A stretch of DNA of 64,000 nt from Chrysophaeum taylorii (taxonomy: Eukaryota; Sar; Pelagophyceae; Pelagomonadales; Pelagomonadaceae), in assembly GCA_029834535.1 (NCBI GenBank), contig JAQMWT010000675.1, forward strand, positions 248,001 through 312,000. Direction: 5' to 3'. Positions 33,406 to 42,900 of the stretch are shown one piece after another. The notes under the pieces are model-generated. The model saw only the letters and a program-made list of their open reading frames with translations, was not told the origin of the DNA and searched no databases. A program made the translations under genes and the position numbers. Each line of letters begins with the position of its first letter. Position 1 is the first letter of the stretch.

Positions 33406-34079
33406 TTCTACTAGCAGAGCGATTTATCGATCTGATGGCATCGGATCGATATAGATCTGATGGCAGTATCGGATCGGATCAGTCGATCGATTTGCACCTC
33501 TAAGTAAATGCAGAAAGGGCGGCATCGGACACATCGGACATTTCAGTACAATCAACAACCATAGTGAGAACAGCACTGACCAACAGGGACTCTTAGCAGT
33601 CGACCTTTAAAGACCTCCAGAGCGCTACACTATAATGTGTACGACACTGGCATTCCCTACTCCTTCTTTCACACTTCTTCTTCTACTTGAGGGTTTTCTC
33701 TTCGTAATACGGCTTTTTCCCTCTCCTACCTTACCCTTCCGCAATTACTTATTTCATGACTATGAAGAATTAGTCCGAAGCTCTCTTCCAACAAGGAGTG
33801 CAAACGAAAATGTAGATTTCCGGCATAACGTATAGGCCTCTGTGGCAGTAACGCCCATTCCCCGCGCTTGCCTGCCTGCCACCTGACTTACCCTGATTGT
33901 TGCTTTGGTGCTGACCTTGCAATTATGGGGGGGAGTGTCATCTTGACATCCTCACCTGTACTCCCACGAAACCCAATGTACCAGGCATTTGTATTGCTTT
34001 CTTCCTGTCTTCTTGCTATTACCCTCATTTTGATTGTCCGATTTCGTGATGCCGTGAGGTGTTTACGCTGAGATCGGGC
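33406..34079. other. Intergenic region with a solitary junction-module remnant
   Basis: Holds imperfect GGATCGATATAGATCTGATG-type repeats (33421-33490) and, at 33589-33615, CTCTTAGCAGTCGACCTTTA, a degenerate copy of the junction module. The rest may belong to the 5' flank or a long terminal repeat of the retroelement that follows, but no matching 3' copy was found. Confidence 0.35.
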
Positions 34080-34622
34080 GTGTGGTGGTTTCACCCGCGG
34101 TTCGGGTTGGGAGAAAGGGTTGTTGAGGCCCCTGGTCCGGCCAAGAGGGGCGGGTATCCGAGAGAAAAACCACTACAGTGGTCTCAGAAACGGGAATCGA
34201 TAGTCCAACTCCCGGACTATCGATCTCCTGTTTTTCGGCGGCGAGTCGGTTCGTAACGATCGAGTGAGTGCGAAGCCGACGCATTTGCGAGTGAAGATCC
34301 AGGGGATCACGGGTACCGCCGCGGGGTTCATTTTACGTGATTCGGATCGAACGGAGAGCGGAGTCACTACGACTCATTATGGCAACAAACATAAGCCCCA
34401 ACCTAGCTCGCGCGAGGCTGACCACCTCCCTGACGGCGAGCGACAGCACCGGGAAGACCGTCCATAGTCTTCACGCGCAAGTTAAAATACTTCCGTGAGA
34501 CCAGCGCACCGGTACCAGCGCGCAGTCAGACGGCTGCCGGCAATTGTCGTCAGACGAAAAAAAATACAACAAGTGAGTTGTGAGCGTTCGGATTAATCCT
34601 ATTATCCGGGCAAAGCGCGGTC

Positions 34623-35701
34623 ATGGCAGAGAGGCCAATGACAGAACGACCGCAGTGGTTTCGGGACGCACAGGAGCGTCTGCAACGATTCAGTGCAGCG
34701 ACTCCGCTTTCGTATATTGGAAGAACACCGTTGAGTATGCCCTTTCAACGGCCGGAAGCCGAGGAAAGCGGCATCAGAAGAGAGGCAAGGTCATCGGACA
34801 GCCTCGACAACCCCCCAAGCGTGATAATCCTTCCGGATCCACGCGCTGGCGAAGGGGGAGCTACGGTTGCGCCAGACGCAACTTCAAGACCGGGTGAGCC
34901 GACGTTCCCGCACGCACGACCCTACGAACGTGCGATGAATACTACGGAGCCATCTCGAGCGGAACCCGGACCGTTTACGGCGATGCGTGGACCAGAGGAG
35001 AGTACACCTCCTAGCCACCATCCGCGAATACGAGAGCGACAGATTTTCGCGTGGATACCGACCCCGAGATTCTGCAGACCATCAACGAACGATTCGAAAT
35101 GTACCAGTCGCAGATCGAGCAAGTCATACGTGAACTTGAGCGCACCCGCCGCGACGCGCAACAACGACGCTCAGAAGTGGAGCGGCAGCGGATCGACAAC
35201 GACCGACTTCGACGAATGGTGGAGGAATCCACGCGGGCGCATGCTCGAGAGGCACGGCCAGCCTCTCCGGATGCTACGCGTGTTACGCCCGAAGAAGATG
35301 ACGCTGCATCGGCACTGACCGACGATCAGCCACCGCGAAGTCGACCGGAGCCTACCCCGCAGCATCATACTGACCCGGGTTCAGCACATCCTCGTAACGA
35401 AGAAGATAAGCTTCGGGTCAAGAAGGGAGCTGCTGGTATGACTCGTATCACGTTTTCGAATCTCAGTGGGCAAATTACGAAGGACCGGGTGGAGGTGAAT
35501 GCGTGGTGGATGCAATTGCAGCGTAAGATGGAAGGCGAGATCATGCCGCATGAAGGATGTGTGAACATGCAGCTAGAAGCCACTGAGGACGATTGTCATG
35601 CGACTCTCACGGCTGCTGTTGACGAGAATGAAGTCGAGGAGGATGTCTTGAGTGACAGTCCTCCTCCTCAGCCACCTCCAGATGAAGAAGTGAAAAAAAA
35701 A
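34623..35701 (+). pseudogene. Gag-like region, two overlapping frames
   Basis: First frame (34623-35318) starts MAERPMTERPQWFRD and is Pro/Arg-rich. The second (open from 35015 to 36148, coding-like to about 35701) contains a clear coiled coil (EILQTINERFEMYQSQIEQV, IRELERTRRDAQQRRSEVER), an acidic/Pro linker and TRITFSNLSGQITKDRVEVN, perhaps the capsid start. No CCHC zinc knuckle was seen. The frame switch around 35015-35050 suggests decay; the second frame lacks an ATG before the coiled coil. It ends at the A9 tract discussed separately. Confidence 0.5.
35693..35701 (+). promoter_or_regulatory. Candidate -1 ribosomal frameshift site (A9 tract)
   Basis: Nine adenines followed by CAC sit where the gag-like frame (codons AAA AAA AAA CAC) meets the pol frame, which is -1 relative to it and has its first ATG at 35710. 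An A-AAA-AAA heptamer in the zero frame is a known type of slippery sequence. No downstream structure was evaluated. Confidence 0.4.
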
Positions 35702-35709
35702 CACCAGAA

Positions 35710-38130
35710 ATGGAGATGGAGGCGACTGATAAGGACCTGCTATCTAAGCACGCCTCCTTGGTTTGGATACCCATCACCTACACCTTTGTCGTCGTCTACT
35801 TTGCTGGCGCTGGAGGATCAACGTTGGGTATCCGGCGATGCAATGAGCTATATGGCAGTTCATTTCGCATTGTCCTGGCTTTGGATGCTTGTCCTCAAGC
35901 CCGAGCCACCTTTGAGCTCAATTTTCCGAAGATTCCCTATGTTTTGCATGAGATGGGGAAATCTCATCGTCGTACATACGACTTGGTGTTGTCGTATTTA
36001 CACTCAGATTTTTGGAAGCACTCTTATTTTCACGCCAGTCCGCCGTGTATCTATGGATCGACTGCCAATTTGCGCTACAGGGACGCACGCAAGGGCGCTA
36101 CTATTACTTCTTGGGTCCTGCGTCATTTCCGCAACGCACCTTATGTGATTGGACGATGGACGCTCGAGCAGGAACCATCAGTGATCCCTTTTGTGCTTCA
36201 CCAATTTTATGTGCCGCGTATTGTTGATTTCTATAGTATCACGCCAGAGCTGCTGTGCTCGCGCACGCGCCTACTTGCTTGCAGTGTTCGCTTGGAACTG
36301 CCGTTATTATCGCGTGTACCACCGAATTTACGGGACCGTTTTGGCCCAGCGTTGGGATTTACAGGTGGTCACCCGCTCATTATAGTGAACAGTTTCTCAT
36401 CTACGCGCCCGGCTATCGGCCCTGCCTTTACGGTGACGCGCAATAAGCTCCGCTTAGGACCTCATTTCTCGAACACCCGTCCACTCACTTTGCAGATGCA
36501 CCAGGAAATTATGACCGTTCCTGCTACGTGGCAATGGGGTGCAACAGTTTACGAGACAGTAGCTATGAAGATGCTTGGCAGTATGGTGCCACCCGCGACT
36601 ATGACGCGGATTGCGCTAGCAGTGCACAATTCGTTTGAACCTTCACTTCGAAATTTGGGTAAGTTGCGGAATATTGCGACGACTACTCTAGCCCAACCTG
36701 ATCACCATATTCTACGGTTTTCACCTTTTGTTGTAGAGTCGCGCATTCCAACGCTCGACCCTGCCACTCGAAGTGTATCATGGATTGCGCCCGATGAACT
36801 CTATTCTCCTGCGAGTCCTGCACCATCCGCTGCTGCCACCACCACCCCGCCACCGCCTTCAGTTACATCGCCTGGGACGGCTTCATCTTTTGCAGGGGGC
36901 ACCGTCGCCAATGCTGTTATGCAGAGCAACCAAGTTGATAACCAGCCCTCCGCAACTGCTGAAGAAGAAGGCACCGCGAAAGAGCGACCAGCGTATTTCA
37001 ATACGTACGACGTTCTGTGGGCGGACGCGCCTCACGACGAATATGGTCAACCTTCACCGGTGATGCCTCCTCATTTAGCGGATCAGGAGAGCATGCAGGT
37101 CATCCCTCCGACCGTCGCGCAGGTCGAAGAGGCGATGACTGAATTGGGTAATACAGAGCATCCTGCCTTAGATGATGACGAGAAGCTGATGATGAAGCAT
37201 TTAATCTCGTATTCGTGGGCATTTTTCGATGATGTGATGAGACCTGTTGATTCACCTGAAGTGACGCTCCGGTTCAAAGAAGAGAACCCGACTCCCGTCA
37301 AACTCTCGCCATATCGGTTGTCGAAAGAAAAGACTGAATGTTTGCGGATGCAGATTGAAGCATGGACCCGAGACGGAGTTATTCGTCCCGCGAATTCTCC
37401 ATGGGGTTTCCCTATTTTGATGTTGCCTAAGAAAGGTGCTGAGCCTGGCACTTCCAATGCTTACAGAGCAGCTGTCGACCTACGGAGCCTCAATGCATTG
37501 CTCAAGGATGATAGCTGGCCGAGTGTGAGCATGACTGACGCGTTGATGTTTCTCATTGACAAGTTTTGTCGTTCCAGTTTGGATATTCGTTGGGGCTATC
37601 ACAATTTACGATTGTCGCTGGATGCACAAGATGTGGTCACCTTCACTAGTCCTCTGGGAGCGTACAGCTACATGCGTCTACCTTTGGGAGTCAAACCAGC
37701 CGAAAGTTTGTTTTGCAAGGAGTTGAACATTGACTTGTCGCAATGGCTATATCGTGACCTCGTGGCATATATCGACGATATTCTCGCCGGTCACGCAGAT
37801 ACAAAGAATCACTTGCAGTGCCTTGTGCAAGTTATTCCCCATCTCGCCTTGAAGGGGTACAGCGCCAAGATCAAGAAGATTCATTTTATGCAAGAAGTTA
37901 TTGAGTTTTTGGGTCATTTATCTACCCCGAACGGACTTCTTCCATCACCAAGATCTTTAGAAGCTATCAGACACATGCCAATTCCTGGCACTTTGTCAGA
38001 TGCTGACCCTAAGAAGCAAGTGCGATCTTTCCTTGGAATGGGGAGCTTTTGCCGGCGTTATGTAAGGAATTTTGCGAACCTTACCCTGATCGCCGACCGC
38101 ATGGTTGCGATGGAGGACGGTGCCTCATGA
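35710..38130 (+). CDS. Pol polyprotein: C5-cytosine DNA methyltransferase fused to Ty3/gypsy reverse transcriptase
   Basis: 806 residues. Residues 26-305 read as a C5-cytosine methyltransferase: motif I FAGAGG (31-36), an acidic strand end LALDACPQA (56-64), motif IV SPPC with the putative catalytic Cys113, motif VIII-like SRTRLLA (184-190), a target-recognition stretch around 220-255, and motif X LGSMVPPATM (289-298, the family's GNAVPP). Motif VI (usually ENV) is unclear (LEQEP, 152-156). A Pro/Ser/Thr linker (about 355-400) follows. Residues 530-790 are a Ty3/gypsy reverse transcriptase: GVIRPANSPWGFPIL, DLRSLN, YMRLPLGVKPA, YIDD at 687-690, FLGHLSTPNGLLPSP and FLGMGSFCRRY. The last 20 codons (after RNFANL) belong to repeat G, so the natural C-terminus with RNase H/integrase is gone. 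No aspartic protease motif was found. The frame is intact for 2.4 kb, suggesting recent activity or selection. Confidence 0.85.
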   Translation: MEMEATDKDLLSKHASLVWIPITYTFVVVYFAGAGGSTLGIRRCNELYGSSFRIVLALDACPQARATFELNFPKIPYVLHEMGKSHRRTYDLVLSYLHSDFWKHSYFHASPPCIYGSTANLRYRDARKGATITSWVLRHFRNAPYVIGRWTLEQEPSVIPFVLHQFYVPRIVDFYSITPELLCSRTRLLACSVRLELPLLSRVPPNLRDRFGPALGFTGGHPLIIVNSFSSTRPAIGPAFTVTRNKLRLGPHFSNTRPLTLQMHQEIMTVPATWQWGATVYETVAMKMLGSMVPPATMTRIALAVHNSFEPSLRNLGKLRNIATTTLAQPDHHILRFSPFVVESRIPTLDPATRSVSWIAPDELYSPASPAPSAAATTTPPPPSVTSPGTASSFAGGTVANAVMQSNQVDNQPSATAEEEGTAKERPAYFNTYDVLWADAPHDEYGQPSPVMPPHLADQESMQVIPPTVAQVEEAMTELGNTEHPALDDDEKLMMKHLISYSWAFFDDVMRPVDSPEVTLRFKEENPTPVKLSPYRLSKEKTECLRMQIEAWTRDGVIRPANSPWGFPILMLPKKGAEPGTSNAYRAAVDLRSLNALLKDDSWPSVSMTDALMFLIDKFCRSSLDIRWGYHNLRLSLDAQDVVTFTSPLGAYSYMRLPLGVKPAESLFCKELNIDLSQWLYRDLVAYIDDILAGHADTKNHLQCLVQVIPHLALKGYSAKIKKIHFMQEVIEFLGHLSTPNGLLPSPRSLEAIRHMPIPGTLSDADPKKQVRSFLGMGSFCRRYVRNFANLTLIADRMVAMEDGAS

Positions 38131-38442
38131 ATCCTGAGCCTTGCGAGGGCATCCGCCCTCCCGGCGTAGGTTGGCACCTAATCGCCTCTCGGGCGGGCCG
38201 GTTGGCAGCCGGAACGTTCGCAGTGGGACGGGGTATGGCCGGGGGGCGCAGACGGAAGGTTATCGACGAGTTGGTTGTCAGTCACATCGCGGTCTCCTCG
38301 TCGCATGGCGACAAGTTTGATGGTCACTCTCCGCCGACCGACCTTTCGGCGCTCCTCGTCTACAGGCCCGTGATTCCGGACTGGCTCCTGTCGGTCCGGC
38401 CTGGCTCCCATGCTCGGGAGAGGTCTGAAGTTAGTTAAGTTA
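38075..38442 (+). mobile_element. Repeat family G, longest copy
   Basis: From ACCCTGATCGCCGACCGCAT to GGTCTGAAGTTAGTTAAG. It includes GATGGAGGACGGTGCC, CCGGCGTAGGTTGGCACC and GGACGGGGTATGGCCGGGG. Other copies: 13800-14112, 27615-27848 and 45165-45405 (reverse). Here it joins the retroelement RT in frame. It may be the retroelement's own 3' terminus or a separate element. Confidence 0.6.
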
Positions 38443-38790
38443 GTTTGGGCGGAGTAGCCCCAAGTCCAGCCCCCGGGGGGAGTCGACTGGTGCCCCCCCC
38501 CCCTGCAGCCTTCGGCCGCGACGAGCTCCCCGTCCGTGTGGGCGATACCCCCCCAGATAACGTAAAATAGAAAAGAATAAAGAAAACAATTCTAAAGAAC
38601 AACAAAAAAATAAAAAGTGAAAAAACTAAAAAAAAAAAGTTAAAAAACTAAAAAAAAATTAAATAAACAATAAAACTACCTACCTAACTAACTAACTCAC
38701 TAAAAAAATATATTTAAAATATATCAAAAAAAAATAAAAAAAATATAAAAATCATATAGAAATAAATAAATAACCCATCGAGTCCAAGCC
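38443..38790. other. AT-rich low-complexity segment
   Basis: About 230 bp (38550-38780) of A-rich sequence with AAAAACTAAAAAA and CTAACTAACTAACT units, a sharp break from the GC-rich surroundings. No gene. It sits between repeat G and the broken gene on the minus strand. Confidence 0.6.
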
Positions 38791-40114: not shown

Positions 40115-42900
40115 ATGTCGCGTCGTGACTCCGGAGCGTCCTTCGACTTCGACACGGATGACGAGGAGGTCGATATCGACGAGGGCTTCGCTCAGGTCGA
40201 GCGGGACCGTGCTGGTATCACGCTGACGTCGGGCGACGACGACACCAAGAACGGCAAGCGTGGCCTGACGAAGGTTAACGATTGTGACAGATCGCCGCGT
40301 ACGCTGTCGCAGCTCAGAATGTTCAAGCACCACGTTTCGCTGCTTTCACGCTACCCGACGAAATCCGAATTTAGTATGTGCGTTCGGGAAGAGGCCGAGT
40401 TGCAGCAGAAGATGGTCGACACGGGGGGGAAGCAACAGCGTGCATAACATGATCAATACCGCGACGGCGTTGTCGTTCAAGTGTAAAGTAGAGGGCTGCG
40501 GCTTCTTTAAGCGCGCTGCTCGTCGTGATGGGCTTATAGACTTTGTCGTCACGCATGATGAACCTCACACAGGAGTTTTTACACCGACGAAAACCCAGCC
40601 CAAGTCGAACTACCGCGCAGAGCACTTCTTACAGGCCGTGACGACCATCATCAAGAAGGGCTCTATGGAGAGCAAGTCAGGAGGCACTACTCGGAAAGGC
40701 GTCTGGTAGATGTCCACAACAACGTCATCAAGGAAAGGCTCAATGAGATGACGAACCGTGAGCATACACTCTCATCCGTCGAGAACATCTAGCTCAAGTC
40801 ATCCTAGCGCTCTTGGGAAACGAGGAGAGGAACGCGGTATCAGCGGTGTCTTGCGCAGGTCTTGTTTGTGGCTGTTGTCCTGCGAGGAGGTGCATGTGTG
40901 TGATCAAACTTGTAATGTTCTGACCAAACTTTGTGACAAAACTTGTGACTGTATGACCAAACGTGTGACTTTATGACCAAACTTTTGACTTGGTGACCAA
41001 ACTTGTGACTTAATGATCAAACTTATGTTCGTGTGATCAAACTTTGTGATTAAACTTGTAGCTTTCTGATCAAACTCTTTTGGTTTCGTGACCACACTTG
41101 AAAATCGTAGCTTAGTGTGTTAGTATACTTCGCCACATCTACATTCACGTGTGTGCATCAAAGTCACACTTGTCATTCTCTTAGGCGGAGTTGCACGCTT
41201 GCCAGCGCGCGTTGCGAGCCCACGGTCATGCGGTTAAGTTGTATGGCGCGAAACAAGGAGATCTCCTGAAGGTATTCATGAAGAGGCTCAAGTCTGAGCA
41301 CAAGTCGGAACAAGAGTTCAGGCATGGCTCCGACAGGAGCCGGTACAAGAGCTTAGACCTCAACGACTACAAGATCCCTGAAACGCTGCAGTCACCTGCC
41401 TTGGCTGATAGGAAGTTCTTCTTAGGTTATGTCGTCGTGTCGAAACCCGCCATACGCATGATGAATGCGGGCCTCCTGCGCCGGCAGGCGTTTATTGACG
41501 GCGTTCACTGCCTCGACAACCAGGTGATGATCTCTGTGACCGGCCGTGATGCCAACAACCACCTCGTGATGATATCCACTTCGTGGTGGAACATGACCGA
41601 GTCTGCGGAATCGATCGGCAAGGTCATTAAACTGACCGTCGAGAACATCCCGCACAGAAACTGTCAGGGATTCGTCATAGTACAGGACTTCCAAAAGGGA
41701 AGCCTCATAGCGCACGTCACCGTGAGTGACCTCGCTAGCACCATTTGATTCCTCGTCTAATTCCGATTCCTGCGCAGCATACGCCCGAGGCCGACGCCTT
41801 CTCGTGCAGTAAGTCTTTGATGAACTGTTTACTCTTCGTGAATACGTCCTATTCACAGTGAACCACGGCAGCGAGAACATCGCAAAGATCGCGGAATCCG
41901 GGGATGCCGCTATCTTTCGTCGCTTTGTTGAGGCGCCTACGAAGGCGGCCAGCGACGCTTTTCATGCCGAACTTTCTCCCAAGGCCCAGCGTTGGGTGAG
42001 TCATAATCTCCTCGTGGCATTGAGTTTTCTGGCACTACAGGTTGCCAGTCGGCGCGAATATGCGCGAAAGCATCTGAACGATCAGGAAGCAGACACCGTC
42101 ACAGTGTTAGACGGGCCCAGGGCACTCTTTGGCACGAGTACGAACAACCCGGCGGAGGCTTTCAACAAGAAGCACATCAACGCGAGGTTATGCAACGGAC
42201 CCAAGTCCCTCCAGACCTTGTTCGCTGAGCAGGCAACGACCTACGCGGATACGAGCGCAGCGGCCATCCGGTGCGCAAAAACCGGCGAGAGGCTCACGTG
42301 AGTGTTCCTCGTGTTCGGATGCAAATTGTTGCGTCATTAGTTTCGTCTTGTCTTCGATCAAAATGGCGTGTTTTCGGCCAATAATCTCAAGGGTCTCAAC
42401 CATCTCAAATACGTACGGGCCTACGGGCCTTTGTCTTTTCAGATCACACTCCCGTTGTTATGTTCACACTTGTCGGGTTGTTCTATGTGATATCTAAGCG
42501 TGAACCGTAGGCCCAACTACAATAATGATGCCCAAGTCAAGGTTGCAAAAAGCAAGACCCGGATAACAAGAGTTCAGCCTTACGGCGGCGGCGCTGGCGC
42601 CAATAAGGGGACGTTCTTGGTGTATGTCAAAGGTGACAACAATCAGCAACTTACGTCCGTCGTTGTTATCGGGCAGAAGGGATACGTGAATTTTGAAGAT
42701 TCGGAGCAACTCGACGTACTTTCCTGTAACTGTGGCAACTACGCGTTCTCTCGCTTGCCGTGCGTTTGCATGATTGGAGCTCAGATAGCTCGCGGTGAGC
42801 ATGCTGAGGATCTCTATCCACTTTGGACCACGACGCAGCGTTGGGAAAATCAATATCGGGTCGGGGGGTGTTTCCGATTCTCAACGCAACGGAAATTGAG
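40115..42900 (+). pseudogene. MULE transposase, fragmented
   Basis: Segments in order: N-terminal acidic start (40115-40447), a FLYWCH/FAR1-like zinc segment FKCKVEGCGFFKRAARRDGL (about 40480-40540) in another frame, the MULE core QAFIDGVHCLDNQVMISVTG, RDANNHLVMIS, then GFVIVQDFQKGSLIAHV (41480-41715), a helical part with FRRFVEAPTKAASDAF and NPAEAFNKKHINARL (41890-42190), and a SWIM-type end LSCNCGNYAFSRLPCVCMIG (42716-42775) in which the usual final His is Cys. The frame changes at a G7 run (40421-40427) and elsewhere; some gaps may be introns (short gaps occur at 41748-41858 and 42301-42500), but the internal GACCAAACTT array makes decay likelier. Confidence 0.6.

Follow-up and report, generated by a model that had tools for sequence, protein, structure and literature searches.

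A predicted C5-cytosine methyltransferase in the Gag-Pol of a truncated Ty3/gypsy retrotransposon of Chrysophaeum taylorii

Background

Retrotransposons that carry cytosine DNA methyltransferases (DNMTs) have been described in the dinoflagellate Symbiodinium and in the charophyte alga Klebsormidium nitens (passages of PMC5890265), as a preliminary description of the DNA studied here had stated, and why such elements carry these enzymes is an open question in the literature that we found. Here we analysed 64,000 nucleotides of the pelagophyte Chrysophaeum taylorii (contig JAQMWT010000675.1, positions 248,001 to 312,000; the whole stretch is called the window, and its positions are counted from its first letter), which contain a fragment of a long terminal repeat (LTR) retrotransposon. 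We identify it with high confidence as a truncated and internally deleted copy of a Ty3/gypsy element with a C5-cytosine methyltransferase in its Gag-Pol, after a protease-like region and before the reverse transcriptase (RT).

KnitGypsy-Dnmt3 of K. nitens is, like the element described here, an LTR Gypsy retrotransposon with a DNMT in its Pol frame. According to the relevant passages of PMC5890265, however, its DNMT belongs to the Dnmt3 clade and its repeats have a DIRS-like arrangement, whereas DNMT3 was not among our solved-structure profile matches and the C. taylorii element has ordinary direct LTRs with 4-bp target duplications. SymbioDIRS-Dnmt3 and SymbioLINE-Dnmt of Symbiodinium, in the same passages, likewise carry their DNMT within the coding sequence of a retrotransposon, number hundreds of copies and show purifying selection, but they are tyrosine-recombinase and LINE elements with DNMT3 or orphan DNMTs, while ours is an LTR element with an integrase. 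Among algal mobile elements, Sola1-1_Ec32 of Ectocarpus also contains a DNA methyltransferase domain, but it is a DNA transposon; it has a ParB-like domain, and its enzyme is predicted to be of the N4-cytosine or N6-adenine type (passages of PMC12477816).

Citing the 2018 paper, a passage of PMC12344493 places some DNMT3 members in 'LTR Copia and DIRS' elements; the 2018 paper itself (PMC5890265, in the passages concerned) gives Gypsy for Klebsormidium and describes Symbiodinium Copia elements without a DNMT. Passages of PMC6338049 report retrotransposons with adenine or cytosine methylases, of gypsy and DIRS clades, in stramenopiles among others, and name no such cytosine enzyme. In listings and passages of the open PMC literature, to which the search was confined, we found no description of an ochrophyte or similar alga with an LTR element that carries a C5 DNMT, and none of a non-DNMT3 enzyme in a Copia element. 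The gypsy element adds a variant to the known retrotransposon DNMTs, and it likely arose by a capture independent of them.

A methyltransferase and a reverse transcriptase in one frame

On the forward strand, to which all the features of the window copy belong, positions 35710-38130 form an uninterrupted frame of 806 codons (35686-38130 from stop to stop). The frame matches the Pfam model DNA_methylase (PF00145) in two stretches, with an E-value of 8.7e-8 and 32.4 bits against a cut-off of 22, and the Pfam model RVT_1 at residues 573-736 (E 4e-12). The DNMT domain covers residues 26-305 (35785..36624) and, when positions 35785-36650 are searched alone, it matches PF00145 at E 4.2e-9; the Ty3/gypsy RT extends over 37288..38078, where it is cut short, and has its YIDD at 37768-37779. 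A search of the PDB with the whole frame returned 21 sequences at E <= 1, headed by 4ol8_A (reverse transcriptase/ribonuclease H, E 2.4e-22) and followed by the Ty3 Gag-Pol 7q5b. The preliminary description had read this frame as a methyltransferase joined to a Ty3/gypsy RT, had proposed the Pfam comparison of its two parts, and had listed the motifs FAGAGG (I), SPPC with Cys113 (IV), SRTRL (VIII-like) and LGSMVPP (X-like). The joined frame is indeed there, both parts match their models and all four motifs are present. These comparisons confirm the frame as encoding a putative, divergent C5-cytosine methyltransferase with catalytic motifs and a Ty3/gypsy RT.

Three relatives were used to judge which residues of the domain are kept: L010, a fuller copy in the same genome; L055, a copy from a subfamily at 81% protein identity to L010 in this domain; and P0002, a metagenome protein (source ENA) whose domain is 36% identical to that of L010. 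P0002 has the same DNMT-RT fusion as the window frame, with 37% identity over 100% of the query; it differs in that its DNMT part falls below the Pfam threshold, and it is known as a protein only. It was one of 17 proteins found with the frame at E <= 1e-5 among 7994 scored; alignments of the remaining 16 cover 25-41% of the query, as expected of matches to the RT alone. P0002 suggests that the gypsy form also occurs outside this genome. L010 and L055 both exceed the Pfam cut-off, the latter at E 2e-9.

The motifs are given here the names I, IV, VI, VIII and X, which we assume to apply to this domain. Across L010, L055 and P0002, the invariant positions are F31, G33 and G36 of motif I (FAGAGG, 35800..35817, putative binding of S-adenosylmethionine), HASPPC with motif IV (SPPC, 36037..36048, putative catalytic Cys113), the whole of RWTLEQEPS (36154..36180), R185 and R187 of the motif VIII-like SRTRL (36259..36273) and the MVPP of motif X (MLGSMVPP, 36571..36594). 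The rest of motifs I and X is changed, the former in P0002 and the latter including its GS. By order and context, TLEQ with Glu153 is taken to be the equivalent of motif VI, which was missing from the preliminary list. Loss of this motif, as suggested by 'YVIGRWTLEQEPS', was ruled out by the conservation of the Glu in P0002.

When a profile made from L010, L055 and P0002 was compared with the PDB, the sole match at E <= 10 was 8yf3, a cytosine-specific methyltransferase, at E 0.039; DNMT3 was therefore not among the matches at this threshold. The match consists of two co-linear stretches, each weak alone, and motif X is aligned to the C-terminal part of 8yf3.

The complete element

The C. taylorii genome comprises 70.8 Mb in 697 contigs. 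Used as a DNA query against it, the 2421-bp frame found 44 matches, with 40 of the 1127 candidates scored. Fifteen copies (L009-L023), picked among the best matches to a junction-spanning query, were fetched with 8.8-10 kb of surroundings. A search for full-length copies with LTRs had been proposed in the preliminary description; fuller copies with direct LTRs and 4-bp duplications were found, none of the 15 being open from gag through integrase.

The 5' LTR of the window copy (33841..34177) is 337 bp long with TG...CA ends, TGTGGCAG...CCACTACA, and other copies carry the same sequence at their 3' end. One base past it lies a candidate primer-binding site, TGGTCTCAGAAACGGGA (34179..34195), with a leading TGG, whose start is the same in L012, L014, L016, L018 and L019. 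An N-terminal gag remnant with an interrupted frame follows at 34623..35536; its DNA is about 90% identical to that of L010 and other copies, and it corresponds to the start of the 1815-aa frame of L020. At 35531..35541 the window copy has the junction of an internal deletion: nine of the 15 fetched copies have 2.5-2.6 kb more at this point and L018 has 0.87 kb more, L012, L016 and L019 have the short form of the window, and L009 and L023 are without the left-hand part in the fetched sequence. The additional part encodes a gag-like capsid region, a zinc-knuckle-like CLSCGR motif (7 copies) and, in nine copies, a protease-like region with LDGMAD in place of D-T/S-G (L010 3984-4100 and eight others). 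Gag and protease were named by position and resemblance: the match to Retrotrans_gag remained under its cut-off (17.3 of 24.1 bits), and the protease-like region had no useful match in Pfam or the PDB.

Downstream of the DNMT, L010 has RVT_1, RT_RNaseH (1e-24), the integrase finger Integrase_H2C2 (2.4e-16) and the integrase core rve (2.2e-6; below the cut-off, 28.3 of 32.6 bits), in this order and in separate frames; in L020 rve reaches 32.5 bits, just under the same cut-off. The order of the element is then gag, protease-like region, DNMT, RT, RNase H and integrase, flanked by LTRs, which are plain direct repeats, and by 4-bp target duplications. Identical 4-bp flanks are a mark of integration, and they were present in all four elements with both ends (L010 GGTC, L012 GGAG, L016 GAAC, L019 CCAG). 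The two LTRs of an element differ at few sites (3/330 in L012, 3/328 in L016, 4/330 in L019, 9/273 in L010 and 16/300 in L014), and therefore some insertions are young.

The fuller copies change two details of the preliminary description. The methyltransferase had been described as the beginning of pol, but the ATG of the window frame is not the true start of the protein: L010 has a frame of 1812 aa, and L020 one of 1815 aa, that starts in gag and contains the DNMT, while in the window copy the upstream frame is broken immediately 5' of the DNMT. The DNMT had also been placed where a protease is expected, with no protease motif seen. No protease is seen because the window copy has lost about 2.6 kb internally; the fuller copies have the protease-like region, with its atypical active-site triplet, 5' of the DNMT, which speaks against the DNMT as a protease replacement.

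The deletion of the window copy is bounded by the short repeat GAAGGC. The DNA across the join was matched through in 35 of 40 scored places (197 candidates), the window included, the other five being one-sided; this search favours deleted copies, and 35/40 gives their number rather than their frequency, but it shows that copies of the deletion form have multiplied. The three fetched copies that share it (L012, L016 and L019) have in common one stop inside the DNMT, absent from the window copy, and were presumably moved by proteins made elsewhere.

At its other end, the window copy is matched by all 15 fetched copies as far as 38076-38078 and by none beyond 38078. The last part of the frame (38079..38130) is foreign sequence, in frame to the stop and outside the element, unmatched in 15 of 15 copies; it may be the end of another repeat, given a 49-bp match between window 38080-38130 and contig C26 (C26:11289-11337) that lies inside the interruption of another copy. 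The interruption on C26 is about 365 bp long and lies between ends that overlap by 9 bp (query 1915-1923), which is what a small insertion that duplicates 9 bp would leave. A second (3') LTR was not found in the window, where the matching pieces, four of L010 and three of L012, fall without exception on the 5' LTR or within the body. The window copy is a fragment from the 5' side of an LTR element, and the parts after the RT are missing.

Selection on the methyltransferase and depth of its association with gypsy elements

The ratio of nonsynonymous to synonymous substitution (dN/dS, by the Nei-Gojobori method and pooled over pairs within a subfamily) was calculated for the DNMT and the RT. The DNMT of L055, which lies inside an open frame of 2129 aa, was compared with 16 other copies: dN is 0.10-0.118, dS 1.29-1.57, which is near saturation, and dN/dS 0.072-0.085. 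The DNMT is thus under strong purifying selection between the two subfamilies. Among the 16 copies of the main subfamily, which form 120 pairs, the pooled ratios are 0.297 (DNMT) and 0.220 (RT), and therefore the DNMT is held somewhat less tightly than the RT. For KnitGypsy-Dnmt3, passages of PMC5890265 give purifying selection with Ka/Ks below 0.2, to which the values between our subfamilies compare well, but not the pooled value within the main one. The intact frame had been seen in the preliminary description as a hint of retained use of the enzyme; this is supported by other copies, with their long open frames, their low dN/dS between subfamilies and the conservation in P0002, while the window copy alone says little.

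A search of the genome with the DNMT protein gave 125 entries (116 of 932 candidates scored), and exact motif patterns occurred 108 and 119 times, with no occurrence in reversed controls. With the RT, 147 of 1043 candidates were scored, and 46 of these are 60-63% identical to the RT of L010. By eye, on the first 100 pattern places of each, this group had seemed to be without a DNMT; a search with the DNMT of P0002 (128 of 759 candidates scored) overturned this, finding a DNMT 679-693 bp upstream and on the same strand at at least 18 of the 46 RT places. These DNMTs are 32-34% identical to P0002, the RT of which is 50% identical to that of L010. Since the DNMT is present both in this deeper RT lineage and in P0002, it is probably ancestral to this gypsy lineage. 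The junction of methyltransferase and RT in 15 of 15 fetched copies, the constant spacing in the deeper lineage and P0002 rule out that an assembly error joined the two parts.

Two copies of the deeper gypsy-DNMT lineage, at C5:522981-549396, are contained in open frames, one of 3067 aa and one of 3063 aa, which suggests a single-frame Gag-Pol.

A second family of copia type

PF00145 matched 57 places in the genome, with 123 of the 474 candidates scored, and 30 of these loci were read. One is Dnmt2-like, its best PDB match being DNMT2 (3.9e-39). L025 (region C621:16962-17498) has a full PF00145 domain in an open frame of 2086 aa; we regard it as Dnmt5-like and presumably the host's own Dnmt5-type enzyme. 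Twenty-eight of the 30 loci form one further DNMT family, about 65-100% identical to the locus L040.

In L040 and the adjoining L054 (C96:62610-68500), the DNMT belongs to an open frame in which a protease motif, IDGGAS, precedes it and an integrase and RT of copia type follow (RVT_2 3e-18; rve 0.0023, short of its cut-off). Of the 28 loci, L040 included, 27 have the upstream protease region and 25 the downstream region; the protease motif is mostly DGGAS, with DSGAS in L038 and L047. By domain order and RVT_2, we assign this second family to the copia type. It shares with the gypsy family a retroelement polyprotein in which the DNMT directly follows the protease, and differs from it in the Copia domain order, in the wording of its motifs (LPCQ and ENV) and in a DNMT without detectable similarity to the gypsy one (profile comparison E 0.65). 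Compared with the Dnmt5-like protein, the copia-type profile gives E 0.37. In the PDB its best matches are HhaI-type and other cytosine methylases, all weak (profile E 0.073; L026 E 0.027), and no match to DNMT3 was found in these solved-structure searches.

In 12 of the 28 copies, chosen for absence of stops, dN/dS of the copia-type DNMT is 0.147 (residues 20-225, 66 pairs). The protein search of the genome gave 105 entries (96 of 712 candidates scored), and nothing was found at 1e-5 among 7993 scored proteins. Both DNMTs were scanned against viral sequences, and the gypsy DNMT also against prokaryotes; the 43, 12 and 15 pattern matches obtained include no relative.

We put forward, as a tentative idea that is somewhat doubtful, that two unrelated retrotransposon superfamilies separately took different non-DNMT3 cytosine methyltransferases into the same slot after the protease and kept them through deep diversification, a convergence which would point to a general need at the particle stage. 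If the two captures are true, unmethylated new retroelement DNA may be recognised or destroyed in the host, and the elements would mark their own DNA before integration. In both families, long open frames and measurable selection are found, and each was scored at about a hundred or more places of a 70.8-Mb genome, a much smaller system than Symbiodinium, whose genomes are near 1 Gb (from a published abstract). The presence of two element types in one host makes the self-methylation idea testable by comparison.

Possible role of the methyltransferase

Because the DNMT lies between the protease and the RT, it should be packaged with the RT and meet the cDNA. From this anatomy we infer a possible course of events, in its catalysis, substrate, timing and benefit alike. 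Made as part of Gag-Pol, the DNMT would enter the virus-like particle together with the RT and there methylate the new element DNA, or else the new insertion. The new copy would come into the genome already marked, and a host with its own cytosine methyltransferases could maintain the mark, so that the copy would pass as resident chromatin and not as foreign DNA, and host damage would be limited. Marking new DNA before or at integration would be the simplest role that explains the selection on the enzyme, and appears to us the likeliest. Methylation by the element of its own new DNA is, taken by itself, about an even bet; the explanation as a whole, element identity together with a self-methylation role, we consider rather probable.

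To look for a mutational trace of CpG methylation, we compared substitutions among copies; the rates are pooled pairwise counts from non-independent pairs. The observed/expected CpG ratio is 1.0-1.1 in element loci against 1.25 in the window outside the element. In the LTRs (n=21), C/T differences at CpG amount to 659/5419 cells against 1537/27576, or 0.122 against 0.056, about a two-fold rise, and at gypsy third positions G/A changes peak after C, at 0.060 compared with 0.035-0.049. Taken with the coding-DNA results that follow, the CpG footprint is weak and mixed.

Several results weigh against an active enzyme that methylates its own element. CpG transitions are not raised in the DNMT-RT coding DNA (gypsy 0.0318 against 0.0320; copia 0.102 against 0.105); at gypsy third positions C/T changes peak before T (0.176), the context before G coming next (0.076), and at copia third positions CpG has no lead. 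The multiplied deletion-form copies with a stop in the DNMT indicate that an intact DNMT in cis is not needed by every copy, and a frame open from gag through integrase was found in none of the 15 fetched copies, the longest frame being of 1815 aa. Moreover, the PDB search with the whole 806-codon frame at E <= 1 returned only RTs and no DNMT, the NCBIfam dcm model scored 15.5 bits on the frame, far under its cut-off of 100.65, and the AlphaFold2 model of the gypsy DNMT (pLDDT 34.6) is unusable. As P0002 also falls below Pfam and this model gives no help, the methyltransferase identification is one made from sequence.

A role on RNA or in a non-CpG context, for example on the genomic RNA of the element or on the priming tRNA, is rather unlikely, though the most probable of the alternatives to self-methylation. 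It would account for the small CpG footprint in coding DNA, and the HASPPC context of motif IV is similar to SPPC in the host's Dnmt2-like protein, which belongs to a tRNA methyltransferase family (hhalign aligns the two weakly, with E 0.042 and probability 1.2%). SymbioDIRS DNMTs methylate CG de novo, whereas the SymbioLINE DNMT tested in yeast gave no DNA methylation and an RNA target was proposed for it (passages of PMC5890265). However, the CpG rise in the LTRs does not fit such a role, the likeness to Dnmt2 is one of motif context and weak alignment, and 8yf3, the sole match of the PDB profile search, would be a DNA enzyme judging by its name.

Rather unlikely, and a little more so than an RNA target, is a domain that has lost catalysis and serves Pol as a nucleic-acid-binding or assembly module. 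High divergence, the position of the best PF00145 stretches at the two ends of the domain and not in its middle, and the stop in the DNMT of multiplied copies agree with it, but L010, L055 and P0002 all keep C113, E153, R185, R187 and MVPP, with L055 81% and P0002 36% identical to L010, and dN/dS between the subfamilies is low. An action in trans, on host, rival-element or viral DNA (compare the antiviral idea in passages of PMC6338049), seems to us improbable: the gypsy DNMT was scored at more than 100 places and the copia one at at least 96, with several hundred first-look candidates each, but a role tied to packaging with Pol is simpler. That the N-terminal domain is no methyltransferase and matches by chance is very improbable, since the lack of a confident AlphaFold2 model, the sub-threshold domain of P0002, the low dcm score and a protein search with the domain alone that gave nothing at E <= 0.01 among 3014 candidates are outweighed by matches above the Pfam cut-off in two subfamilies, by the motif order I-IV-VI-VIII-X and by a cytosine methyltransferase, albeit a weak one (E 0.039), as the only PDB profile match at E <= 10.

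Other observations

Rfam and tRNA scans of the window found nothing. A repeat of about 285 bp, with 95-97% identity, occurs near the gypsy element in three places (window 38159-38445, L009 8458-8748 and L019 7959-8240). Farther along, at 40900-41110, the window has short imperfect repeats, by eye of a 'tgaccaaactt'-type unit, adjoining an open stretch at 41185-41748. Elsewhere in the genome, 84 matches to the light-harvesting family PF00504 were found. The chains nearest to one of these proteins are peridinin, fucoxanthin and other antenna proteins of the chlorophyll a/c type, which marks the host as a photosynthetic eukaryote and makes the ochrophyte supposed in the preliminary description plausible. 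Light-harvesting genes with equal or near-equal scores are clustered on one strand, apparently as tandem arrays, at C88:35406-41267 and C539:24843-30127.

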